The position numbers were made by a program, and so were the translations under genes. Below the pieces are notes generated by a model. That model saw nothing but the letters and a program-made list of their open reading frames with translations. It did not search any database and was not told the DNA's origin. A stretch of 64,000 nucleotides of DNA from Pseudomonas sp. S04 (GTDB lineage Bacteria > Pseudomonadota > Gammaproteobacteria > Pseudomonadales > Pseudomonadaceae), in the NCBI RefSeq assembly GCF_009834545.1, contig NZ_CP019427.1, forward strand, positions 3,602,001 to 3,666,000, in the 5' to 3' direction. This document shows, one piece after another, positions 49,176 through 58,184 of the stretch. Position 1 is the first letter of the stretch; the number at the start of each line of letters is the position of its first letter.

Positions 49176-49997
49176 TCACTTGATCCGGTAATGAAAGGTA
49201 TTGCGCACCGCTGGTACAGCCACCGCGCGACCGTCCACCATGCGTGGCTGATAGCGAAAGGTGTTGGCCGCCGCCAATGACGGACGCATGAACAACGGAT
49301 GGCAGCCGTCGAGCACCCGCGGGTTTTCCACTTTGCCCTGGGGGTTGACGGTGTATTCCACCGAGCAGTCGCCCTCGATGTTCTTGTCCAGGGCTCGCTG
49401 CGGATAATCCGGCGCCTCCTTGCTCAACGGCAGGTACTGACGACTGTCGGCCGCCGCCTGCTGGCGCGTGCGTTCGGCTGCCTGGCGCGCCTGGTCGGCA
49501 CGCTGCGCCTGGTCTGCCTGCTGCTGGGCCAGGCGTTGCTGCTCGGCTTCGCGGCTGCGCTGCTCCTGGGCCACGCGCTGGCGTTGTTGCTCGGCCTCGC
49601 GAGTGCGCTGCTCTTCGACCCGCTTGCGAGCGAGGCTCGCCTGTTCCAATTTGCGGGCCTGGATCTGCGGGTCGACTGCCGGTTTGACCGCTGCCGGAGC
49701 CGCTGGTACCGGCGCGGCCACTACCGGCGCAGGCGGCGCAGGCTCGACCACCGTCGGCAGCGGTTCAGCGGCGGGGACCGGGGCTGGCGGCGCCGGGGGC
49801 AACATCACCAATTGGGTCCGCAGCACCGCAGCCGGCGCTGGCGGTGGTGGCGCCACCGACCAAGTGTGCACCAGCAACGCCAGGACCAGCACATGCAGCG
49901 CCACTGCCAGGCCCGCCGCCAGGCTATTGCGCCAGAACCCCGACTGATCGGCGCGCGGCAACACCAGGGCTGGGTGGGCCATGCTCATGCTGGTCAT
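49176..49997 (-). CDS. tonB: TonB energy transducer
   Basis: A 273-residue inner-membrane protein spanning the periplasm. One helix at about 24-45 (SLAAGLAVALHVLVLALLVHTW, with the family His), then a Pro/Ala-rich stretch (VAPPPPAPA, PAPVVAAPVPAAPA) and an Arg/Gln/Glu-rich coiled segment (about 115-195). The C-terminal TonB domain is YPQRALDKNIEGDCSVEYTVNPQGKV to FRYQPRMVDG. Its ATG overlaps the ExbD stop. It ends the phytase operon, so it is probably dedicated to the receptor encoded there. Confidence 0.9.
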   Translation of the reverse strand: MTSMSMAHPALVLPRADQSGFWRNSLAAGLAVALHVLVLALLVHTWSVAPPPPAPAAVLRTQLVMLPPAPPAPVPAAEPLPTVVEPAPPAPVVAAPVPAAPAAVKPAVDPQIQARKLEQASLARKRVEEQRTREAEQQRQRVAQEQRSREAEQQRLAQQQADQAQRADQARQAAERTRQQAAADSRQYLPLSKEAPDYPQRALDKNIEGDCSVEYTVNPQGKVENPRVLDGCHPLFMRPSLAAANTFRYQPRMVDGRAVAVPAVRNTFHYRIK

Positions 49998-50440
49998 TGC
50001 GGCGCCTCGGTAACCAGTCCGAGGTTGCTCACCCCGCCCTGCTGCAACGCCGCCATGGCCGCCACCACCGTGCCGTAGCCAGCGTCCTTGTCGGCGCGGA
50101 TATAGACCTGGGTCTGGCTGTTGGCCGCAACGATGTCCGTGACCTTGGCCCGCATCTCGTCCAGGGTCAGCGCGCTGTCGGTCTGCTGCTGGGTGTCGAG
50201 TTCCCCTCCCAGGTTCCAGGAGTAACCGCCCCCAGCCTGCACCGACAGCGTGAGGATCTGTTGGCGGCTGTCAGTGGCCAGGGCTTCGCTGGCGACCTTG
50301 GGCAGCTCGATCTTCACGCCCTGGGTGAGCATCGGCGCGGTGACCATGAAGATCACCAACAGCACCAGCATCACGTCGATATAGGGCACGACGTTCATTT
50401 CGGCCTTGGGCCCGTGTTTGCGTTGCGGCCTGACTAACAT
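49994..50440 (-). CDS. exbD: ExbD/TolR-family protein
   Basis: A 148-residue protein with a short cytoplasmic N-terminus, one helix carrying the proton-channel Asp (NVVPYIDVMLVLLVIFMVTAPM) and a periplasmic TolR-like domain (QVYIRADKDAGYGTVVAAMAALQ). Together with ExbB it forms the proton-driven motor energising TonB. AGGAGA precedes the ATG. The gene lies 14 bp after exbB and overlaps tonB by 4 bp. Confidence 0.9.
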   Translation of the reverse strand: MLVRPQRKHGPKAEMNVVPYIDVMLVLLVIFMVTAPMLTQGVKIELPKVASEALATDSRQQILTLSVQAGGGYSWNLGGELDTQQQTDSALTLDEMRAKVTDIVAANSQTQVYIRADKDAGYGTVVAAMAALQQGGVSNLGLVTEAPQ

Positions 50441-50454
50441 TGGCTCTCTCCTGC

Positions 50455-51165
50455 TCAGGCGGCTACGGCCAGGTTGATGGAGCCGCCGTGCAACGTGCGA
50501 TGCAGGCGTACTTGCAGCTCATTGCCGAAGGCGTAGTAACGGGTCAGCAGGGTCTGGCTGCGTGCAGAAAAACGGTTGTAGGCGATCACCGCGGGAATCG
50601 CCGCAAACAGGCCGATAGCGGTGGCAATCAGCGCTTCGGCGATGCCCGGCGCCACCGTGGACAAGGTTGCCTGCTGCACCTGGGACAGGCCGAGGAAGGA
50701 GTTCATGATCCCCCACACGGTGCCGAACAGGCCGATGTAAGGGCTGACCGAACCGACCGTGGCGAGAAACTGCAGGCCCTTTTCCAGCTTGATCTCCTGC
50801 TCGCTGAGGGCCACGAACATGGCTCGCTCCACGCCCTCGAGTACCACCTCGGGATTGTTGCCGGGGTGCTGGCGCAGTTGGCTGAAGGCCTGTAGGCCGC
50901 TATGGAACACCGGCTCGATGCCGGCCTCGGGATCGCTGCTCTGCGCGGTCTCGCGGTACAACGGCTGCAAGTCCGGGGCACTGCGAAAGCGCTGGATAAA
51001 CGCATTGGCCTGGCGCTCACGCTGGCGCAGCACACGGCTGCGGGCAATGATCAGGTACCAGCTGAGTACGGACGCCAGCAACAACGTGAGCATGACGGCT
51101 TTGACCAACAGACTGGCGTCGCTGATCAGCCCCCAGACGGTCATGTGTTCCAGTGTGGCCTGCAT
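50455..51165 (-). CDS. exbB: ExbB/TolQ/MotA-family proton channel protein
   Basis: A 236-residue inner-membrane protein with three helices (about 13-37, 128-155 and 165-195). The conserved block is LEKGLQFLATVGSVSPYIGLFGTVWGIMNSF followed by GIAEALIATAIGLFAAIPAVIAYNRF. Sequence is nearer TolQ than classical ExbB, but the operon context with TonB and a receptor supports a TonB role. AAGGAG lies 7 nt upstream of the ATG. The gap of 96 bp to the phytase gene may hold an internal signal. Confidence 0.9.
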   Translation of the reverse strand: MQATLEHMTVWGLISDASLLVKAVMLTLLLASVLSWYLIIARSRVLRQRERQANAFIQRFRSAPDLQPLYRETAQSSDPEAGIEPVFHSGLQAFSQLRQHPGNNPEVVLEGVERAMFVALSEQEIKLEKGLQFLATVGSVSPYIGLFGTVWGIMNSFLGLSQVQQATLSTVAPGIAEALIATAIGLFAAIPAVIAYNRFSARSQTLLTRYYAFGNELQVRLHRTLHGGSINLAVAA

Positions 51166-51261
51166 GGTGAAGCTCCTTGGTGGGTGCCCGGCGGCGGTTG
51201 CCGTGCAACGGCCGCCAGGCTATTCGATGAAAAACCGATGACAGGTTGATGACAGCCGCGG

Positions 51262-53175
51262 TCAGGGCAATTGCAGCGCCTGGGTGACCTCGGCCCAAGG
51301 CACGAACTTGAAGTTCTGGGTCTGTTCGGGCATCCGCTTGCGCCCGTCCTGCACCACCAGCATGCCCTTGCTCCAGGCCCCGCCGAGGTTGACCGCGGTG
51401 ACCTCCAGGCCGTCGGTTTCTGCGGCACCGTCGATGCCGGCCGGCGCATTCAGGCCGACCCGAAAGGCCCCGCGGGAGGCGAAGGGCGGCTCGGCGTCCA
51501 GCACCAGGTAGCTGTCGTTGCCTTGGCTGGAGATCACCAGGTAGTCATGGCTCGGGCTTTGATACAGCGCCAGGCCCTCGACATCGGCGTGCAGTTGCGG
51601 GCCGACCTTGATCACGCTGGTCAACTGCGCCGGCTGATCGGCACGGGCATCCACCGCCCAGACCCCCACGTCCTCTTCGCCGAGGAACAGGCGCTGGCGT
51701 TGATCGTCGGCCACACAGCCTTCGGGCTGGCTGTCGACCTTGAACTGGCGCACCAACTCACCCTGCACCACACCACTGGGTGCACTCAGGCGGTATTGCA
51801 GGAAGGTGCCATCCTTGCCGTTGGCAATTGCATACAGCTCGCCACTGGCGGGCTGGAACAGGCAGATGCCATAGATGTCCTTGAGCGGCGTGGCGATCTC
51901 GCCGGCCTCGCGCAACTCACCGCTGCTGCGGTCGATGCTGAACAGGCTGAGGCTGTTGTGATCGCGATTACTCGCCACCGCGAGGTCGACCGTCTGCTGG
52001 CGGAGCTTGAAGTTGGGCCGCACGTCGACATTGTTCAGGCGCCCCACCGGCAACTCCTGAAGCAGCTTGCCTTGCAGGTCATAGGCCAACAGGCCCTGCT
52101 TTTTGTTGGTGCCCAGGACCCGGCTCAAGGCCGGTTGTTGCGGGTGAATCCAGATCGCCGGATCGTCCGCCGCATCGCCCTGGCGCCCGACCGGGTCACT
52201 CTGGGCCAGCGCGCCGACGCTCGGCAGCACCGGTGCCAAGGGCACAGGCTTGGCCTGCCAGTCCAGTTCGCCCTGGTACAGACGCCCGTCGTCGTCATCA
52301 CGCAGCAAAAGTTGCAGGCCGTTGGCGGTGGTCCGCAGGGCGAGGTTCTGCGGTTCTTTCAACTCACTCACGGGCAGTTTTGCTACGGCGCTCCACGCAG
52401 CGTCCTGCTGCTGATACAGGTGCAGCTGTGCCGCCTTGGGGTCTAGCCCGACCACGCCGCCCGGCACCAGCGCCATGGCCCCGGCCTCCTGGCTGATATC
52501 GCCAAAGGGCTTGCGCAGGGCCACCGGCACCCGCAACACCTCGGCCTCAGGGTGGGCCGGATAGGCCCACCAGCCGACGTTTTCCTCGTTGACCAGTAAC
52601 TGGTTGGCGCCATCGTCGACCTGGCAGAACTGCGCCGAAGGCGGCAGCGGCAAACCTCGAACCCGCTGCGGTTGCGGGTTCAACTGTGCACCGTGGCCCA
52701 CCAGCCACTGCTCACCCTTGCCCTCCTCGCCCACCAGGAACAGGAACAGGTTGCTGGCGTCGTCGCGGTACAGGCACAGGCCATTGACCGCAAAGTCCCG
52801 CGTTGGCAGATACACCGGCTGGCCAAAACGCCGCTGGCGCGGATCAAGGCTGACCAGCAGTGCCTGCTGCCGACTGTTGTCGAGACTGGCCAACAGCACC
52901 TGCTGGCCGGCAGCCCGGCGGTCCAGGCCACTGAAAGTGCCAGCCAGGTTGGCCAGCGGCGCACCTTGTTCGTCTAGCAACAGCAAGCCATCGCGCTCAC
53001 TGGCCGCCAGGCGCTGCGGGCCGAGGTCGGCCGGCAAGAACGCCAGTGCATCCACAGTGAGACCGGGGGCCCAGGGGCTGAGAGTCAACTTCGGCCCGGC
53101 GGCCAACGCCTGGCCCGTGCCCAGGCAGATCAAGGCGGCCAACAGGCAGCGCTTGGGGGAAAACGAAATAGTCAT
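51262..53175 (-). CDS. Beta-propeller phytase, two-domain
   Basis: A 637-residue exported calcium-dependent phytase (3-phytase family) releasing phosphate from phytate. A signal peptide ends at QALAA (about residue 26). The C-terminal domain (about 310-637) has the family landmarks DAADDPAIWIHP, GTNKKQGLLAYDLQGK, PEGCVADDQRQRLFLGEEDVGVW, DVEGLALY and SQGNDSYLV. The N-terminal half (about 27-300) looks like a second, degenerate propeller, as in tandem-domain phytases. AAGGA precedes the ATG. It lies 46 bp behind the TonB receptor gene. Confidence 0.9.
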   Translation of the reverse strand: MTISFSPKRCLLAALICLGTGQALAAGPKLTLSPWAPGLTVDALAFLPADLGPQRLAASERDGLLLLDEQGAPLANLAGTFSGLDRRAAGQQVLLASLDNSRQQALLVSLDPRQRRFGQPVYLPTRDFAVNGLCLYRDDASNLFLFLVGEEGKGEQWLVGHGAQLNPQPQRVRGLPLPPSAQFCQVDDGANQLLVNEENVGWWAYPAHPEAEVLRVPVALRKPFGDISQEAGAMALVPGGVVGLDPKAAQLHLYQQQDAAWSAVAKLPVSELKEPQNLALRTTANGLQLLLRDDDDGRLYQGELDWQAKPVPLAPVLPSVGALAQSDPVGRQGDAADDPAIWIHPQQPALSRVLGTNKKQGLLAYDLQGKLLQELPVGRLNNVDVRPNFKLRQQTVDLAVASNRDHNSLSLFSIDRSSGELREAGEIATPLKDIYGICLFQPASGELYAIANGKDGTFLQYRLSAPSGVVQGELVRQFKVDSQPEGCVADDQRQRLFLGEEDVGVWAVDARADQPAQLTSVIKVGPQLHADVEGLALYQSPSHDYLVISSQGNDSYLVLDAEPPFASRGAFRVGLNAPAGIDGAAETDGLEVTAVNLGGAWSKGMLVVQDGRKRMPEQTQNFKFVPWAEVTQALQLP

Positions 53176-53221
53176 GGAAGTCCTTGGTGATGTATTGCCC
53201 GAATCTGTGGTCCGCAGGGAA

Positions 53222-55765
53222 TCAAAAATGGGTAAAGGTCAGGCCGAGCTTGAAGGTCGGGCCGTACTCTTCGTATTGGGCGTTGTAGGCGCCGTGGCCG
53301 GTGTAGACGTAGTACGACTCGTCCGTGAGGTTCTGCGCCTCGAAGTTGACCTGCAGGTTCTTGGTCAGCGAGTAACGCGCACTGAAGTCAACGAAGGTCT
53401 GGGCATCCACGTGCAGGTCGTGGGCCTTGTCGTTGATCGCGGCCAGCTCATAGAGGTAGTCGGACTTGTAGTTGGCCGACAGGCGCAGGCTGAGCTTGTC
53501 GTCTTCCCAGCCGAGCATCAGGTTGCCGACGGTGTCCGACTGGCTCGGCAGGTCGATGCTGCGCTTGCGGTTGCTGCCGCTGGCGGCGTCGAAGCCTTCA
53601 ATCTGCGCATCAGAACGGCTGAAGGTGGCGTTGGCGCCCAGCAGCAGGCCGTTCCAGGGGGCGGGCAGCCAGTCGTATTTCTGCGAGTAGGCCAGTTCCA
53701 GCCCGTAGAGCTTGGCGCTGTCACCGTTGGTGAAGGTGTGGGCCTCGGAGAAATCGACCCAGGCACCGCTGCCGGCGACGTCGGTGTTGTAGACGAAGTT
53801 CTGGATGTCCTTGTAGAACACGAACGCCGAGACCGTGCCGGCACGGCCCATGTAGTGCTCGATGCCCAGGTCCAGGTTGCTCGACTCCAGGGGCTTGAGG
53901 TTGGGGTTGCCAAAGGTTGCCTCGTCATCGTCGATGACAAACCCCGGCGCCAGTTGACCGAAGGTCGGCCGCACCACGGACTTGGTCCAGGCCGCGCGCA
54001 CCTGGGTGTTCTTGTCCAGTTGGTAGCGCGCGTGCAGGCCGGGCAACCAGTGGTGATAGCTACTCTTGCTGTCGCTGGCCTCGAACTCGCCGTCGTTGAC
54101 CCCGGTGCCCTTGGCCGCGAACTCGGTGCCTTCGTAGCGCATGCCGGCAATGAAGCGCCAATCGTCGATGTCCAGGGTGTTCATCAGGTAGCCGGCGTTG
54201 ATGTCCTCGCTCATCTTGAAGTCGTTGACCCGTGACTCGGTCTCGTCATAGAAGTCCGCCCGGTCGAGGCCGCCGATCAGGTCCTTGATCGCGCTGCCAC
54301 TGATGCCCGGACCGAACTCGCCGAGACGGTAGTGCACCTTGCCCTTCTGGAACTGGCTGAGGTTGAGCTGTTCATCACTGAACCCCAGGTCGTCGAAGTC
54401 CTCATAGACCCAGGCGTCGAGGTTGTTGTCTTTGTTGCGCCGGCTGACCTTGCCGCCGAACTTGACCTGCGACGCATACCCGCTGAGGTCATAGTCGCGG
54501 GCCAGGTCCAGGCGCAGGTTTTTCTCGGTGTCGGTAGTTTTCTGCTGTTCCCAGTCGACCTTGTCGAGGCTGAAGTTGTCGGGGTTGTAGAAGTCCTGGC
54601 CGATGATCAGCCGCGGCTTTTCGCTGTCGTAGAAACCACTGCCGGCAAAGTCCTCGGCGCCGCTGAAGGCGGCATTGGCGATGTGCCCCGGGCTGTCTTC
54701 GCTGGAGCGGCTGTAACCGGCCTGGCCGCTGAGGGTCCACAGGCCCAGCAGGTGCTCGCCACCCAGCACGTAGGATTGGATTTCCTGGGTTTCCTCGCGC
54801 TGCTTGAGCTTGCGCTTGCCATCGGCGTCCCCCAGTTCACCGGCGGCCTGGGGCTCGGCGAACTCGATGCTGGTGGAGTTGCGCGTCTCGCTGTCCTTGT
54901 AGCGGCTGTAGAGGGTGCGCAGGTAATAGCTGCTCAGGTCGTCGGGCTTGTAATCGAAGTTCAGGCCGCCGCCGCTGCGCTCCCGACTGATGTCGTAGTC
55001 ACGCTGCTCGAACTCCTCGAGCCGTGCGCCCCGCTCGAAGTCCCAGGCGCCGCCGGTCTCGACGTTGTCCGAAGCGAAGTCACGCTTCTGCCAGCTCAGC
55101 GCCGCGGCCACGCCGAAGTTGTCGATGCCATCGCCGAGGCTGAAGCGGTCGCTGATCGCCCCGGAAAATTTCGGGCTGGTCTGATGGCTGTTCTGGTCAT
55201 AGCTGGCCTCGCTGCTGCCGGTATAGAACAGGCCCTGATGATCGAAGGCCGACAGGCTCTGCACATCCACGGTGCCACCGAGGGAGTTGGCATCCATGTC
55301 CGGGGTCAGGGTCTTGATCACCGAGAGCGATTGCACCAGCTCCGCCGGCAATACATCGAGGGCCACGGCGCGGCGCTCGCTTTCCGGCGAGGGCACCAGG
55401 GTGCCGTTGATGGTCACGCTGTTGAGGTCCGGTCCCAGGCCCCGCACGCTGACAAACCGGCCTTCGCCCTGGTCGCGCTCGACGCTGATCCCCGGTAGGC
55501 GTTGCACCGCCTCGGCCACGTTCTCGTCCGGCAATTGCGCCACGCCGTCGGCATGCACCACGCTCTTGATGCTGTCGGAGCGGCGCTGTTCCTTGAGCGC
55601 CTGATCGATACTGGCGGCCTGGCCGACCACTTCGATGTGCTCGGTCTGGCCGGCGGTTTCGGCGGCGTGCAAGCGGTCGCTGGCTATCGCCAGGGCCAGG
55701 GCGGTCAGCGTGAAACTGACAAGCCCGGCGGTGCCGCTGCGCGGGTGGCTGCTGCGCTGGTACAT
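53222..55765 (-). CDS. TonB-dependent receptor of the phytase operon
   Basis: An 847-residue outer-membrane receptor without a signalling STN domain. The signal peptide is in the first 35 residues (to LHAAE). The plug shows EHIEVVGQAASIDQALKEQRRSDSIKSVV and NVAEAVQRLPGISVERDQGEGRFVSVRGLGPDLNSVTING, the TonB-receptor type with an SVRG box often seen in non-siderophore (carbohydrate-like) receptors. The barrel ends in HF. The ATG at 55765 follows a G-run; the upstream extension is not signal-like. It is first in the operon with phytase, ExbB, ExbD and TonB. Ligand inferred as inositol phosphates. Confidence 0.87.
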   Translation of the reverse strand: MYQRSSHPRSGTAGLVSFTLTALALAIASDRLHAAETAGQTEHIEVVGQAASIDQALKEQRRSDSIKSVVHADGVAQLPDENVAEAVQRLPGISVERDQGEGRFVSVRGLGPDLNSVTINGTLVPSPESERRAVALDVLPAELVQSLSVIKTLTPDMDANSLGGTVDVQSLSAFDHQGLFYTGSSEASYDQNSHQTSPKFSGAISDRFSLGDGIDNFGVAAALSWQKRDFASDNVETGGAWDFERGARLEEFEQRDYDISRERSGGGLNFDYKPDDLSSYYLRTLYSRYKDSETRNSTSIEFAEPQAAGELGDADGKRKLKQREETQEIQSYVLGGEHLLGLWTLSGQAGYSRSSEDSPGHIANAAFSGAEDFAGSGFYDSEKPRLIIGQDFYNPDNFSLDKVDWEQQKTTDTEKNLRLDLARDYDLSGYASQVKFGGKVSRRNKDNNLDAWVYEDFDDLGFSDEQLNLSQFQKGKVHYRLGEFGPGISGSAIKDLIGGLDRADFYDETESRVNDFKMSEDINAGYLMNTLDIDDWRFIAGMRYEGTEFAAKGTGVNDGEFEASDSKSSYHHWLPGLHARYQLDKNTQVRAAWTKSVVRPTFGQLAPGFVIDDDEATFGNPNLKPLESSNLDLGIEHYMGRAGTVSAFVFYKDIQNFVYNTDVAGSGAWVDFSEAHTFTNGDSAKLYGLELAYSQKYDWLPAPWNGLLLGANATFSRSDAQIEGFDAASGSNRKRSIDLPSQSDTVGNLMLGWEDDKLSLRLSANYKSDYLYELAAINDKAHDLHVDAQTFVDFSARYSLTKNLQVNFEAQNLTDESYYVYTGHGAYNAQYEEYGPTFKLGLTFTHF

Positions 55766-55839
55766 GGTGGTCCCCCCCAAGAGTCCGATAACGCCAGGCA
55801 AGACGCCCGGCAACTGGGAGGGCACGCTAGGGGTGGGGA

Positions 55840-55857
55840 ATGACGGTTCTGTGACAG
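55840..55857 (-). promoter_or_regulatory. PHO-box-like site before the phytase operon
   Basis: On the minus strand CTGTCAC-AGAA-CCGTCAT, against the PhoB box CTGTCAT-N4-CTGTCAT, has 12 of 14 half-site positions matching. It lies 75 bp upstream of the receptor start codon, with TAGCGT 10 nt downstream as a weak -10. PhoB sites normally replace the -35 element, and the spacing fits. Confidence 0.7.
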
Positions 55858-55911
55858 CCACTGCCAGATGGCCCGGTAAACAGGGGGTTTAGCGCGGTTT
55901 TCCTGGGACAG

Positions 55912-56147
55912 TGAGCTGATTTGACCTCTGATACGAGGGGGCCGATCAGCATTTTGCTCTGACTTGAGAGCATCGCGAGCAAGCTCGCTCCCACAGGTTT
56001 AGTGGCCGTACGCAAGATTTGCAGGCAACCAGATTTACTGTGGGAGAGGCCGGGCGGCGCTCCGCTTGCTCGCGATGGCGATTTCCCAGGCACCACGCGC
56101 TGGGTGGCGCAAAAATCGCGTGTCCCAGGCTGAGCTGATTCGACCTC
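55912..56147. repeat. REP pair enclosed by 17-bp direct repeats between the PHO boxes
   Basis: TGAGCTGATTYGACCTC occurs at 55912-55928 and 56131-56147 (one mismatch). Just outside the left copy is CCTGGGACA and just before the right copy its complement TGTCCCAGG. Inside lie ATCGCGAGCAAGCTCGCTCC (55973 on) and the variant arm GGGCGGCGCTCCGCTTGCTC (about 56052). The layout resembles a REP element inserted with target duplication. Confidence 0.6.
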
Positions 56148-56153
56148 CCTGCC

Positions 56154-56171
56154 CTGTCACCCAACTGTCAC
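56154..56171 (+). promoter_or_regulatory. PHO-box-like site before the GGDEF-like gene
   Basis: CTGTCAC-CCAA-CTGTCAC consists of two identical half-sites, 12 of 14 positions matching CTGTCAT-N4-CTGTCAT. It ends 51 bp before the ATG at 56223. TGTGCT 10 nt further on is a poor -10. A second such box on the opposite strand serves the divergent phytase operon. Confidence 0.7.
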
Positions 56172-56222
56172 AGACATCTGCTGTGCTGGCGCGCATTGCT
56201 CGTTCGCCAAAGGATCACGGCC

Positions 56223-57137
56223 ATGTTCTCAGTACTCAAACCCCACCGCTGGAAACTGCTCCTGCTGCTGTTGGCCGCCAACCTGGGGCTGCTCCTGCAC
56301 CTGGCCTGCGGCGAGTTGAAAAGCGTCGGCGAATGGGTCTGGCTGGATATCGTCGGTGAAGGCGGCTCGGCCCTGCTGGCCCTGGTCTGGCTGGGCCTGG
56401 TGCTGAAAAGTCGGCCCGCCGGGCGGGTCACCAATTACCTGGCGCTAGGCCTGGGCTGCATCTTTTTCTCCTGGTGGATCGACAGCCTCGACGAGTTTAT
56501 CCGCCTGCCTGACAGCATCACCTGGGATCACTGGCTGGAGTCCGGGCCGATGCCGGTGGGCATGCTCCTGCTGACCCTGGGCATCTACCACTGGCACCGC
56601 GAACAACTGGCGATCAGCGCGCAGATGGAAAAACGCGAGCGGCTGTTTCGCGAACACCGGCTGTTCGACAAGCTCACGCCCTTGGGCGGTGCCGACTATC
56701 TCAAGCGCCAACTGGCCAGCAGCCTCGACGAAAGCCTGGAGCAGCAGCAACCGCTGTCGCTGCTGGCCCTGGACCTGGACAACTTCGCCGCCATCAACCA
56801 GGCCTGTGGTCACGCTGAAGGCGACGCCGTGCTGCAGGCCGTGAGTCACTTGCTGCTGCTCAACCTGCGGCGCCAGGACCTGCTCTGCCGCCTGGCCGGC
56901 GATCGTTTTGTGGTGGTGCTGGCCAACACCGGCGAAAGCCAGGCGCGGTTACTGGCACTGGAGCTGCAACAGGCGGTGCACGGCCTGGCCCACAAAACCC
57001 GCCAGCACGGCGAACGCTTGCACCTGTCGGCAAGCACCGCGGTGGTGATGGCCATGGACGAATCCCCCGAGCAGTTGCTCAAACGCCTGAACCTGGCGCT
57101 GGCCCGGGCCAAGCAGCCGCTGGCCAAGACGGCCTGA
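56223..57137 (+). CDS. Membrane protein with degenerate GGDEF domain
   Basis: A 304-residue protein. Four to five helices lie in residues about 9-130 (KLLLLLLAANLGLLLHLACG, ALLALVWLGLVL, NYLALGLGCIFFSWW, GPMPVGMLLLTLGIYHW). A GGDEF-like domain (about 150-300) follows, with DLDNFAAINQACGHAEGDAVL, but the signature is AGDRF (225-229) instead of GGDEF. The metal-binding Glu is Arg, so cyclic-di-GMP synthesis is doubtful; it may bind GTP or act as a sensor. It is behind a PHO-like box and 9 bp before an AraC regulator. Confidence 0.8.
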   Translation: MFSVLKPHRWKLLLLLLAANLGLLLHLACGELKSVGEWVWLDIVGEGGSALLALVWLGLVLKSRPAGRVTNYLALGLGCIFFSWWIDSLDEFIRLPDSITWDHWLESGPMPVGMLLLTLGIYHWHREQLAISAQMEKRERLFREHRLFDKLTPLGGADYLKRQLASSLDESLEQQQPLSLLALDLDNFAAINQACGHAEGDAVLQAVSHLLLLNLRRQDLLCRLAGDRFVVVLANTGESQARLLALELQQAVHGLAHKTRQHGERLHLSASTAVVMAMDESPEQLLKRLNLALARAKQPLAKTA

Positions 57138-57146
57138 GGCGCGCAC

Positions 57147-58184
57147 ATGACCTGCAAAACCCTGTGGTACGAAAACGACAGTCGCTTCATTCCCGGGCAC
57201 TACCAGCCGGCGACCCTGATCGACCTGGCCCTCTCGCGGGATATCGACAGCCATCGCCTGTTGCGCGGCACCGGGCTGTTCCATGAGGACATCCTGGCCG
57301 GCCAGACCCGCCTCAGTCCCCAGCAGTTCTTCGCCTTGATTGGCAACAGCAAGCGGCTGCTCGACGCCGACGACAGCAGCTTCCTGTTTGGCCAGCGTTT
57401 GTTGCCGGGGCATTACGGTGCCGCCAGCCATGCCCTGCGCCACGCGCAAAACCTGCACCAGGCTCTCGACACCCTGGTCCAGCAGCAGGCGCTGCTCAGT
57501 CCCTTGGTCACCCCGCAACTGGTGCTGGATGAGCAGTACGCCTACTTCTACTGGCTCGACAGCTGCGGCGCAGGCGAGCAGTGGCGCTTCCTGCTGGAAG
57601 CGAGCATGACCTCGCTGGTCGCCATGAGCCAATGGCTCAGTGGCCAGCGCCTGCCCTGGCAATGCAGTTTAAGCTACGACGAGCCCCGTTATGTCGAACA
57701 GTACTGGGTGCACCTGGGCGAGCAAACCCAGTTCCAGCGCCCGCTGGACATGATGCGCATTCCCCGCCAGTACCTGACGCAAGCCTGGCCCGGTGCCTCC
57801 GCCACGGCCGGCCAGGTCGCACGCCAGGAAGCCCAGCAGCAGTTGGACCAGTTGGGCCATGCCAGCAGTTTTCTCGCCTGCCTGTACCGTTACCTGCAAA
57901 GCCAAGTCCGCCAGGCGCCGAGCCTGGAGCAGGCGGCTCACGCCTTCGCCATGAGCCCGGCCACCCTCAAGCGCAAGTTGCACAAGCACGACACCGGCTT
58001 TCAGCAGCAGGTTGACCTGGTGCGCAAACATGTGGCGCTCTACCTGTACCAGGTCAAGGGTATGAACAACGAGGAAGTCGCGGCCTACTTGAACTTCAAC
58101 GACCCGGCGAACTTTCGGCGCTCGTTCAAGCGCTGGACCGGCAGCACCCCCAACCTGATCCGCCAGTTGTTCTGTGGAGCCTGA
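57147..58184 (+). CDS. AraC-family regulator (arabinose-binding-type N-domain)
   Basis: A 345-residue regulator of the OruR/ArgR-like AraC group with a long N-terminal sensor domain (PATLIDLALSRDIDSHRLLRGTGLFHEDI, DDSSFLFGQRLLPGHYGAASHALRHA). The C-terminal helix-turn-helix pair (about 250-340) shows LEQAAHAFAMSPATLKRKLHKHDTGF and NNEEVAAYLNFNDPANFRRSFKRWTG. It is co-directional with the GGDEF-like gene, 9 bp downstream. By position it may tune the divergent phytase operon; that is inference. Confidence 0.86.
   Translation: MTCKTLWYENDSRFIPGHYQPATLIDLALSRDIDSHRLLRGTGLFHEDILAGQTRLSPQQFFALIGNSKRLLDADDSSFLFGQRLLPGHYGAASHALRHAQNLHQALDTLVQQQALLSPLVTPQLVLDEQYAYFYWLDSCGAGEQWRFLLEASMTSLVAMSQWLSGQRLPWQCSLSYDEPRYVEQYWVHLGEQTQFQRPLDMMRIPRQYLTQAWPGASATAGQVARQEAQQQLDQLGHASSFLACLYRYLQSQVRQAPSLEQAAHAFAMSPATLKRKLHKHDTGFQQQVDLVRKHVALYLYQVKGMNNEEVAAYLNFNDPANFRRSFKRWTGSTPNLIRQLFCGA

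Follow-up and report, generated by a model that had tools for sequence, protein, structure and literature searches.

A 64,000-nt stretch of the soil bacterium Pseudomonas sp. S04 (contig NZ_CP019427.1, positions 3,602,001 to 3,666,000, hereafter the window) carries an island of genes for the putative scavenging of phytate. This compound is the principal phosphorus reserve of plants. It is also a main form of organic phosphorus in soil (PMC4844319). Genes for a TonB-dependent receptor (TBDR), a phytase and ExbB-, ExbD- and TonB-like proteins are read from one strand, and genes for a GGDEF-like protein and an AraC-family regulator are read divergently from the other (Table 1). The gap between both groups carries two PHO boxes, the presumed sites of the regulator PhoB, as well as two copies of a 17-bp element called here the operator; a third PHO box precedes exbB. 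The phytase resembles solved 3-phytases and, together with its PF02333 match, this similarity places it among the beta-propeller phytases. ExbB, ExbD and TonB C-terminal domains are encoded beside the TBDR gene, and the ExbB/ExbD pair exceeds the TolQ/TolR cut-offs, so that the energiser is TolQR-like. PhoB itself is encoded in this genome (TIGR02154, 359.7 bits, over the cut-off).

Table 1. Coordinates (in the window) of the genes, PHO boxes, operator copies and predicted promoter hexamers of the island.
Feature	Position	Strand	Remarks
TBDR-phytase PHO box CTGTCACAGAACCGTCAT	55840..55857	minus	74 nt before the TBDR ATG (55765)
GGDEF-like/AraC PHO box CTGTCACCCAACTGTCAC	56154..56171	plus	51 nt before the GGDEF-like ATG (56223)
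Third PHO box, before exbB, CTGTCATCAACCTGTCAT	51238..51255	minus	Found by pattern and matrix; within the 96-bp phytase-exbB gap
Third half-site TTTTCAT of the exbB PHO box	51227..51233	minus	11-bp register; found by pattern and matrix
Operator copy 1 TGAGCTGATTTGACCTC	55912..55928	plus	Conserved; its start is 72 bp from that of the TBDR PHO box
Operator copy 2 TGAGCTGATTCGACCTC	56131..56147	plus	Conserved; its start is 23 bp ahead of that of the GGDEF PHO box
Predicted -10 hexamer TAGCGT, TBDR promoter	55824..55829	minus	10 nt after the box, pst-like; clear match
Predicted -10 region TGTGCT, GGDEF promoter	56182..56187	plus	10 nt after the box; weak hexamer, conserved footprint
Predicted -10 hexamer TCGAAT, exbB promoter	51222..51227	minus	10 nt after the box
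TBDR	53222..55765	minus	TIGR01782
Phytase, 637 aa	51262..53175	minus	PF02333 in the C-terminal half; N-terminus signal-peptide-like by eye
ExbB/TolQ-like proton channel protein	50455..51165	minus	Profile match
ExbD/TolR-like protein	49994..50440	minus	Profile match
TonB protein	49176..49997	minus	Profile match
Degenerate GGDEF domain protein (LAGDRF)	56223..57137	plus	N-terminus helical, probably membrane
AraC-family regulator	57147..58184	plus	Separated by 9 bp from the GGDEF-like gene; would bind the 17-bp operator

The island was compared with relatives, that is, the best 80 of 432 loci encoding phytase relatives (two of them, L038 and L039, are contigs of one isolate and are counted twice). 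The GGDEF-like and AraC genes lie beyond the TBDR gene in 75 of the 80, the remaining five loci stopping at a contig end. Two loci devoid of a usable TBDR start (L045 and L070) were left out of the TBDR counts, and five whose contig stops before the GGDEF gene (L041, L053, L085, L093 and L070) were left out of the GGDEF counts. Two other samples consisted of 20 further islands, mostly more distant (identity down to 68% for the TBDR and 57% for AraC), and of 149 genomes from the genus, in which the AraC gene was scored as present at E 1e-90 or better. All genomes of the latter sample with a phytase match carry the AraC gene (43/43, the match of G044 covering only 171 residues), and one genome, G082, has the AraC gene without a phytase match.

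The initial annotation had described two PHO-like 18-mers in the 457-bp gap, one facing each way and each within 75 bp of a start codon. Both are indeed found where they had been placed, but the count was too low, as a third site, the strongest one, was missed before exbB, and so was the 17-bp element. All three boxes are direct repeats of 7-bp half-sites with an 11-bp period, and each of the three presumed transcription units carries a box on its own strand. The exbB site consists of three half-sites at 11-bp steps (51227-51255, minus strand) and is the best match of the window.

The rarity of these sites depends on the stringency of the search. With up to 3 mismatches, the pattern CTGTCAYNNNWCTGTCAY matches the window 10 times for 6.2 expected and 7 of 100 shuffles reach 10, so that this loose pattern alone is not significant in the window. 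At two mismatches, the genome holds 35 sites versus 26 in the reversed control, which is mostly noise. With at most 1 mismatch, there are eight genomic sites versus none for the reversed pattern, and three of the eight belong to the island; the only perfect match in the 6.1-Mb genome is the GGDEF box at 56154. A binomial estimate gives a probability of about 3e-12 for three of eight strict sites falling in three 160-bp promoters, a descriptive value since the island had been chosen by the reader. The other five strict sites include one (L008) before a presumed pstC gene, which had no Pfam hit, and two in the vicinity of genes for a delta-aminolevulinate dehydratase (L007) and an ABC transporter (L002), respectively.

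Scoring with a matrix, proposed in the initial annotation as a check, gives the island sites the first four ranks of the window (25.3 at 51238, 22.7 at 51227, 19.8 at 56154 and 17.7 at 55840, the fifth score being 14.1) and places them above the genomic background: in a 400-kb sample (784,252 positions), one position matches the score of the TBDR box and none reaches the other three. This half-site matrix derives from 18 distinct 18-mers. A PhoX locus (L111) supplied one of them, and the others come from a set of 13 pst loci, within which L142 yielded none. Its training sites were chosen with the same consensus as that of the pattern search, and the matrix result is therefore a ranking rather than a test independent of the pattern. 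In addition, PhoX promoters matched at 3 mismatches or fewer in some loci only (the PhoX locus of this genome, L118, has a single match, at 3 mismatches), which may leave the matrix narrow.

The boxes are also conserved. Among the relatives, 76 of 78 have a box scoring at least 13 within 160 bp upstream of the TBDR gene, 73 of 80 have one at this distance from exbB and 44 of 75 from the GGDEF-like gene, the rate elsewhere in the loci of the relatives being 0.0021 per 160 bp. In the alignments, the boxes stand out as conserved islands amid variable DNA. In the first half-site of the GGDEF box, the second base is usually C (61 of 83 distinct sequences). The pst promoters of the relatives show a box, 10 nt and then TAGGGT, TAGAGT or a similar hexamer. 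The same 10-nt spacing separates each island box from its predicted -10 region, TGTGCT (GGDEF) and TCGAAT (exbB) being poorer matches to the pst hexamers than TAGCGT (TBDR). A scan of positions 55700-56300 for sigma-70 promoters and terminators found nothing.

The claim of the initial annotation that such boxes are very unlikely by chance is borne out: the near-expected number of loose matches (10 vs 6.2) fits fortuitous resemblance, but the strict matches, the matrix ranks and the conservation in relatives make it extremely improbable. It may also be asked whether PhoB is the protein that reads the GTCA repeats, or whether a different member of the OmpR family, for instance one resembling TctD, takes its place. 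Regulators of this family read tandem repeats, and PhoB and TctD share promoters in P. aeruginosa according to the text consulted (PMC4513871). However, under a matrix trained on pst sites the island scores fall inside or close to the range of the training sites and the island genes concern phosphorus, and we regard such a substitution as very improbable.

The 17-bp element TGAGCTGATTYGACCTC occurs twice in the gap, 219 bp apart and in the same orientation. Its 16-base core has two exact copies in the genome, both in this gap, the next best match having 2 mismatches. Among the 74 relatives having both gene starts, two copies of the core with at most 3 mismatches were found in 73, and two copies of TGAGCTGANNYGACCY with at most 2 mismatches in all 74; at least two copies with at most 2 mismatches are also present in 18 of the 20 further islands. 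Conservation of the operator equals or exceeds that of the boxes. The exact core is present in 29 of the 149 genomes of the genus (none for the reversed control): 28 of the 44 with the AraC gene versus 1 of the 105 without it (Fisher p about 7e-18), and 33 of its 34 sites lie beside this AraC gene. Because the operator and the AraC gene form one linked locus, this co-occurrence alone is no proof of binding. Nevertheless, the AraC gene encodes the only DNA-binding regulator among the island genes scanned, and the linkage, the length of the element and its phasing (see below) suggest that it would be the target of this protein.

A REP-like inverted pair CATCGCGAGCAAGC (55971-55984 and 56064-56077) lies inside the gap. 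The idea that the two operator copies are a target-site duplication around it was rejected, as both are kept whatever lies between them; the TBDR-GGDEF gap ranges from 314 to 884 bp in the 74 relatives having both starts.

The position of the operator relative to the box is constrained in a particular manner. Measured from start to start, the distance on the TBDR side is 61 bp (9 loci), 71-73 bp (88) or 82 bp (1), which accounts for 98 of 98 loci with a TBDR start. On the GGDEF side it is 22-23 bp (55) or 33-34 bp (32), which accounts for 87 of 94. There is nothing between these classes, and differences in spacing are nearly always complete turns of the helix. Along a tree of the TBDR built with FastTree, the class changed at least seven times at the TBDR promoter and at least nine times at the GGDEF promoter; counted base by base, there are 16 changes at each, the surplus being one-base shifts within classes. 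All 16 larger steps measure 10-12 bp, which would have a probability of about 7e-12 if all sizes between 1 and 15 bp were equally likely; this model is rough and takes no account of the one-base shifts. In these distances the operator was sought near the box. An earlier, stricter count had 5 TBDR and 14 GGDEF rows under its thresholds, and its values of 170 (L104) and 181 (L033) came from taking the GGDEF-side copy. The phasing is the strongest sign that a protein bound to the operator would work with PhoB or the polymerase. A DNA loop joining the two operators at a set phase was rejected as a requirement, since the distances between them extend from 77 to 810 bp and are unphased (R 0.25 for 47 distinct values, in a list that includes two zeros, one copy having been taken twice).

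The partner of AraC in its operon is probably not an enzyme of cyclic-di-GMP synthesis. The motif LAGDRF was found in all 76 GGDEF-like orthologs encoded beside the AraC gene, none of which retains the GG(D/E)EF signature. Because the catalytic signature is replaced in all of them, cyclase activity is not expected and a cyclic-di-GMP output should not be assumed. The AlphaFold model of this protein has long N-terminal helices with low confidence (pLDDT 65.1, 15-row alignment), and that of AraC is poor (pLDDT 54.5, 15-row alignment).

Taken together, these data make it fairly probable that the island is a conserved system for phytate scavenging whose three promoters depend on PhoB, two of them being composite with an AraC operator, and in which PhoB and AraC would co-control phytate uptake. 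The mechanism could be viewed as follows. The three PhoB promoters would drive the TBDR-phytase, exbB-exbD-tonB and GGDEF-like-AraC units. The first and the third would be composite, with a PHO box 10 nt before the -10 region and, further upstream, the operator, which keeps to one face of the helix and whose most likely ligand is the AraC protein of the island. Under low phosphate, phosphorylated PhoB would recruit the polymerase, and AraC, responding to phytate or to a product of phytate, would act with PhoB or the polymerase to give full induction, and would also feed back on its own operon. The receptor would then import phytate by means of its own TonB-ExbBD energiser and the phytase would release phosphate in the periplasm. 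In this genome exbB lacks a good operator, and its expression should track phosphate more simply.

The initial annotation had predicted joint induction of both divergent operons by low phosphate. Control by PhoB fits the anatomy, position, rarity and conservation of the boxes and their spacing to the -10 regions. Because a second conserved element stands beside both boxes of the gap, implying a second input, low phosphate alone is probably only part of what induces the two operons. PHO boxes are common upstream of scavenging genes. The operons could be ordinary members of the PHO regulon, induced by low phosphate alone, the 17-bp element being a minor modulator. The strength and conservation of the boxes agree with this, as do the induction by phosphate depletion of a phytase and its TonB-dependent transporter (TBDT) reported in Flavobacterium johnsoniae (PMC8115612) and the mention of the phytase PhyC among common Pho-regulated scavengers (PMC4415409). 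However, the operator, whose conservation is no lower than that of the boxes, is phased to them, and no evidence of a PhoBR effect appears in the text consulted of a Pseudomonas proteomic study (PMC5082522), so that this explanation seems rather unlikely. A second input would reconcile a PhoB-type island with that study, which in the parts consulted concludes that Pseudomonas phytases are, unexpectedly, outside the PHO regulon and suggests that they are induced by phytate itself; this text does not mention phytate in the medium. PHO boxes without visible phosphate control are also known, as noted in a review passage (PMC4415409).

Conversely, a plant signal could dominate. Together with phytate or some other compound from the plant, AraC would then activate the promoters whatever the phosphate supply, and the role of PhoB would be limited to tuning them (an OR rather than an AND logic). 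M9 is a phosphate-rich medium. From their tag numbers and the gene order of P. amygdali (L099), to which pathovar phaseolicola presumably belongs, PSPPH_2990 and PSPPH_2994 would be the phytase and AraC genes of the island. In a P. syringae microarray with bean leaf extract in M9, PSPPH_2990, annotated with a phytase domain, was induced 3.2-fold and PSPPH_2994 (AraC) 2.3-fold, and the text consulted draws no connection between them (PMC2803797). This induction and the conservation of the operator speak for a dominant plant signal; against it, PHO boxes with pst-like spacing are retained across relatives, and exbB of this genome combines a strong box with the lack of any operator at 2 mismatches or fewer. 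We consider it unlikely.

Several observations nevertheless weigh against co-control by PhoB and AraC as proposed here. The proteomic study of three Pseudomonas strains gives, in the text consulted, no evidence for PhoBR control of phytases (PMC5082522), the leaf-extract induction in M9 means that starvation may not be required, and another OmpR-type regulator could use similar GTCA repeats. The GGDEF box scores under 13 in 31 of 75 relatives, and boxes scoring at least 11 in the 20 further islands number 17 before TBDR, 11 before exbB and 8 before GGDEF; by these counts, the GGDEF box, a perfect match here, is the one whose presence in the genus is least certain. One-base shifts do occur inside the distance classes, the GGDEF distance is 5 in one of 94 loci (L200), and in six of 94 (L201 and L203-L207) the 150 bp next to the GGDEF gene contain no operator. 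Finally, our own claim that exbB lacks an operator across loci failed as stated: 20 of 100 loci have an operator-like stretch with 1-2 mismatches (e.g. TGGGCTGACGTGACCC) less than about 200 bp from exbB. These stretches are always inside the last phytase codons (WAEVT codons; equivalents of 51165-51365, L031-L110), and in this genome none was found near exbB within 2 mismatches, the best stretch searched there having 3. They are probably a coding coincidence rather than a third operator, but they blur the contrast drawn for exbB and make the proposed co-control slightly less probable.

The proposed promoters resemble known ones in part only. Like PhoB promoters of the pstS and pstC type in Pseudomonas, those of the island have two or three 7-bp half-sites with an 11-bp period, 10 nt before a -10 region of TAGxGT type. 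Unlike them, two of the three add a phased 17-bp operator, and the first half-site of the GGDEF box mostly has C as its second base. The quadripartite PhoB/TctD promoters of P. aeruginosa likewise combine PhoB with a second regulator at a defined distance, but TctD is described as an OmpR-type protein that represses from directly downstream, whereas the island operator is upstream, linked to an AraC gene and placed at whole-turn distances (PMC4513871). The ugp operon of E. coli also receives two nutritional inputs, phosphate and carbon, but through separate PhoB and cAMP-CRP promoters in the account consulted, whereas both island sites would serve one promoter (PMC4415409). Fjoh_1367-1368 of F. 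johnsoniae similarly place a phytase beside a TBDT, both induced by phosphate depletion, but neither a dedicated TonB-ExbBD system nor an AraC operator is described in the text consulted (PMC8115612). Lastly, rapA of P. fluorescens Pf0-1 has a Pho box before a gene encoding a cyclic-di-GMP domain; RapA is reported there as an active phosphodiesterase, whereas the island protein has a degenerate GGDEF domain (PMC3032545).

Other features of the island and the genome deserve mention. A conserved segment of the TBDR leader (55792-55812) includes a GCCGGGC/GCCTGGC hairpin. A structured leader of the TBDR mRNA is unsupported, with a fold z-score of -0.51 relative to shuffles and no Rfam match at the gathering score in positions 50000-58000. 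In four genomes (L203, L204, L205 and L207), a purple acid phosphatase gene sits between the TBDR and GGDEF genes. A PHO-like box lies directly upstream of it in L205. In L203 it is preceded by a box-like site and an operator-like copy with a spacing of 22 bp, the arrangement of the GGDEF promoter in other loci, and thus apparently stands behind the same composite promoter. Outside the window, PHO-like half-sites TTGTCATCAGCCTGTCACCCGGGTGTCAT in 11-bp register (G000:C1:1771990-1772018, L011 and L012) lie 33-44 bp before a DUF3859 (PF12975) gene, which is a candidate new member of the PHO regulon. A second PstS-type protein is encoded about 27 kb before the window (G000:C1:3574406-3575344, L134), a 3.9-kb locus in which no PHO-like site was found at 3 mismatches or fewer.

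A bolder version of the composite-promoter model can be put forward tentatively, as a reading that is somewhat less likely than not. The AraC protein would be a sensor of phytate or inositol phosphates acting on the DNA face used by PhoB at two divergent promoters, so that the phytate system would be fully expressed only when phosphate is low and phytate is present. The dead GGDEF protein would adjust AraC, and in one lineage the purple acid phosphatase would have joined the system behind the same composite promoter.

In a literature search, which covered few subscription papers, neither PHO boxes nor the 17-bp operator were found described for this Pseudomonas island. PhoB-type control is known, and what appears so far undescribed is the phased operator added to it at two of the three island promoters. 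If the model is true, it provides a bacterial phytate sensor, and the system would escape screens in which cells are starved in the absence of phytate.

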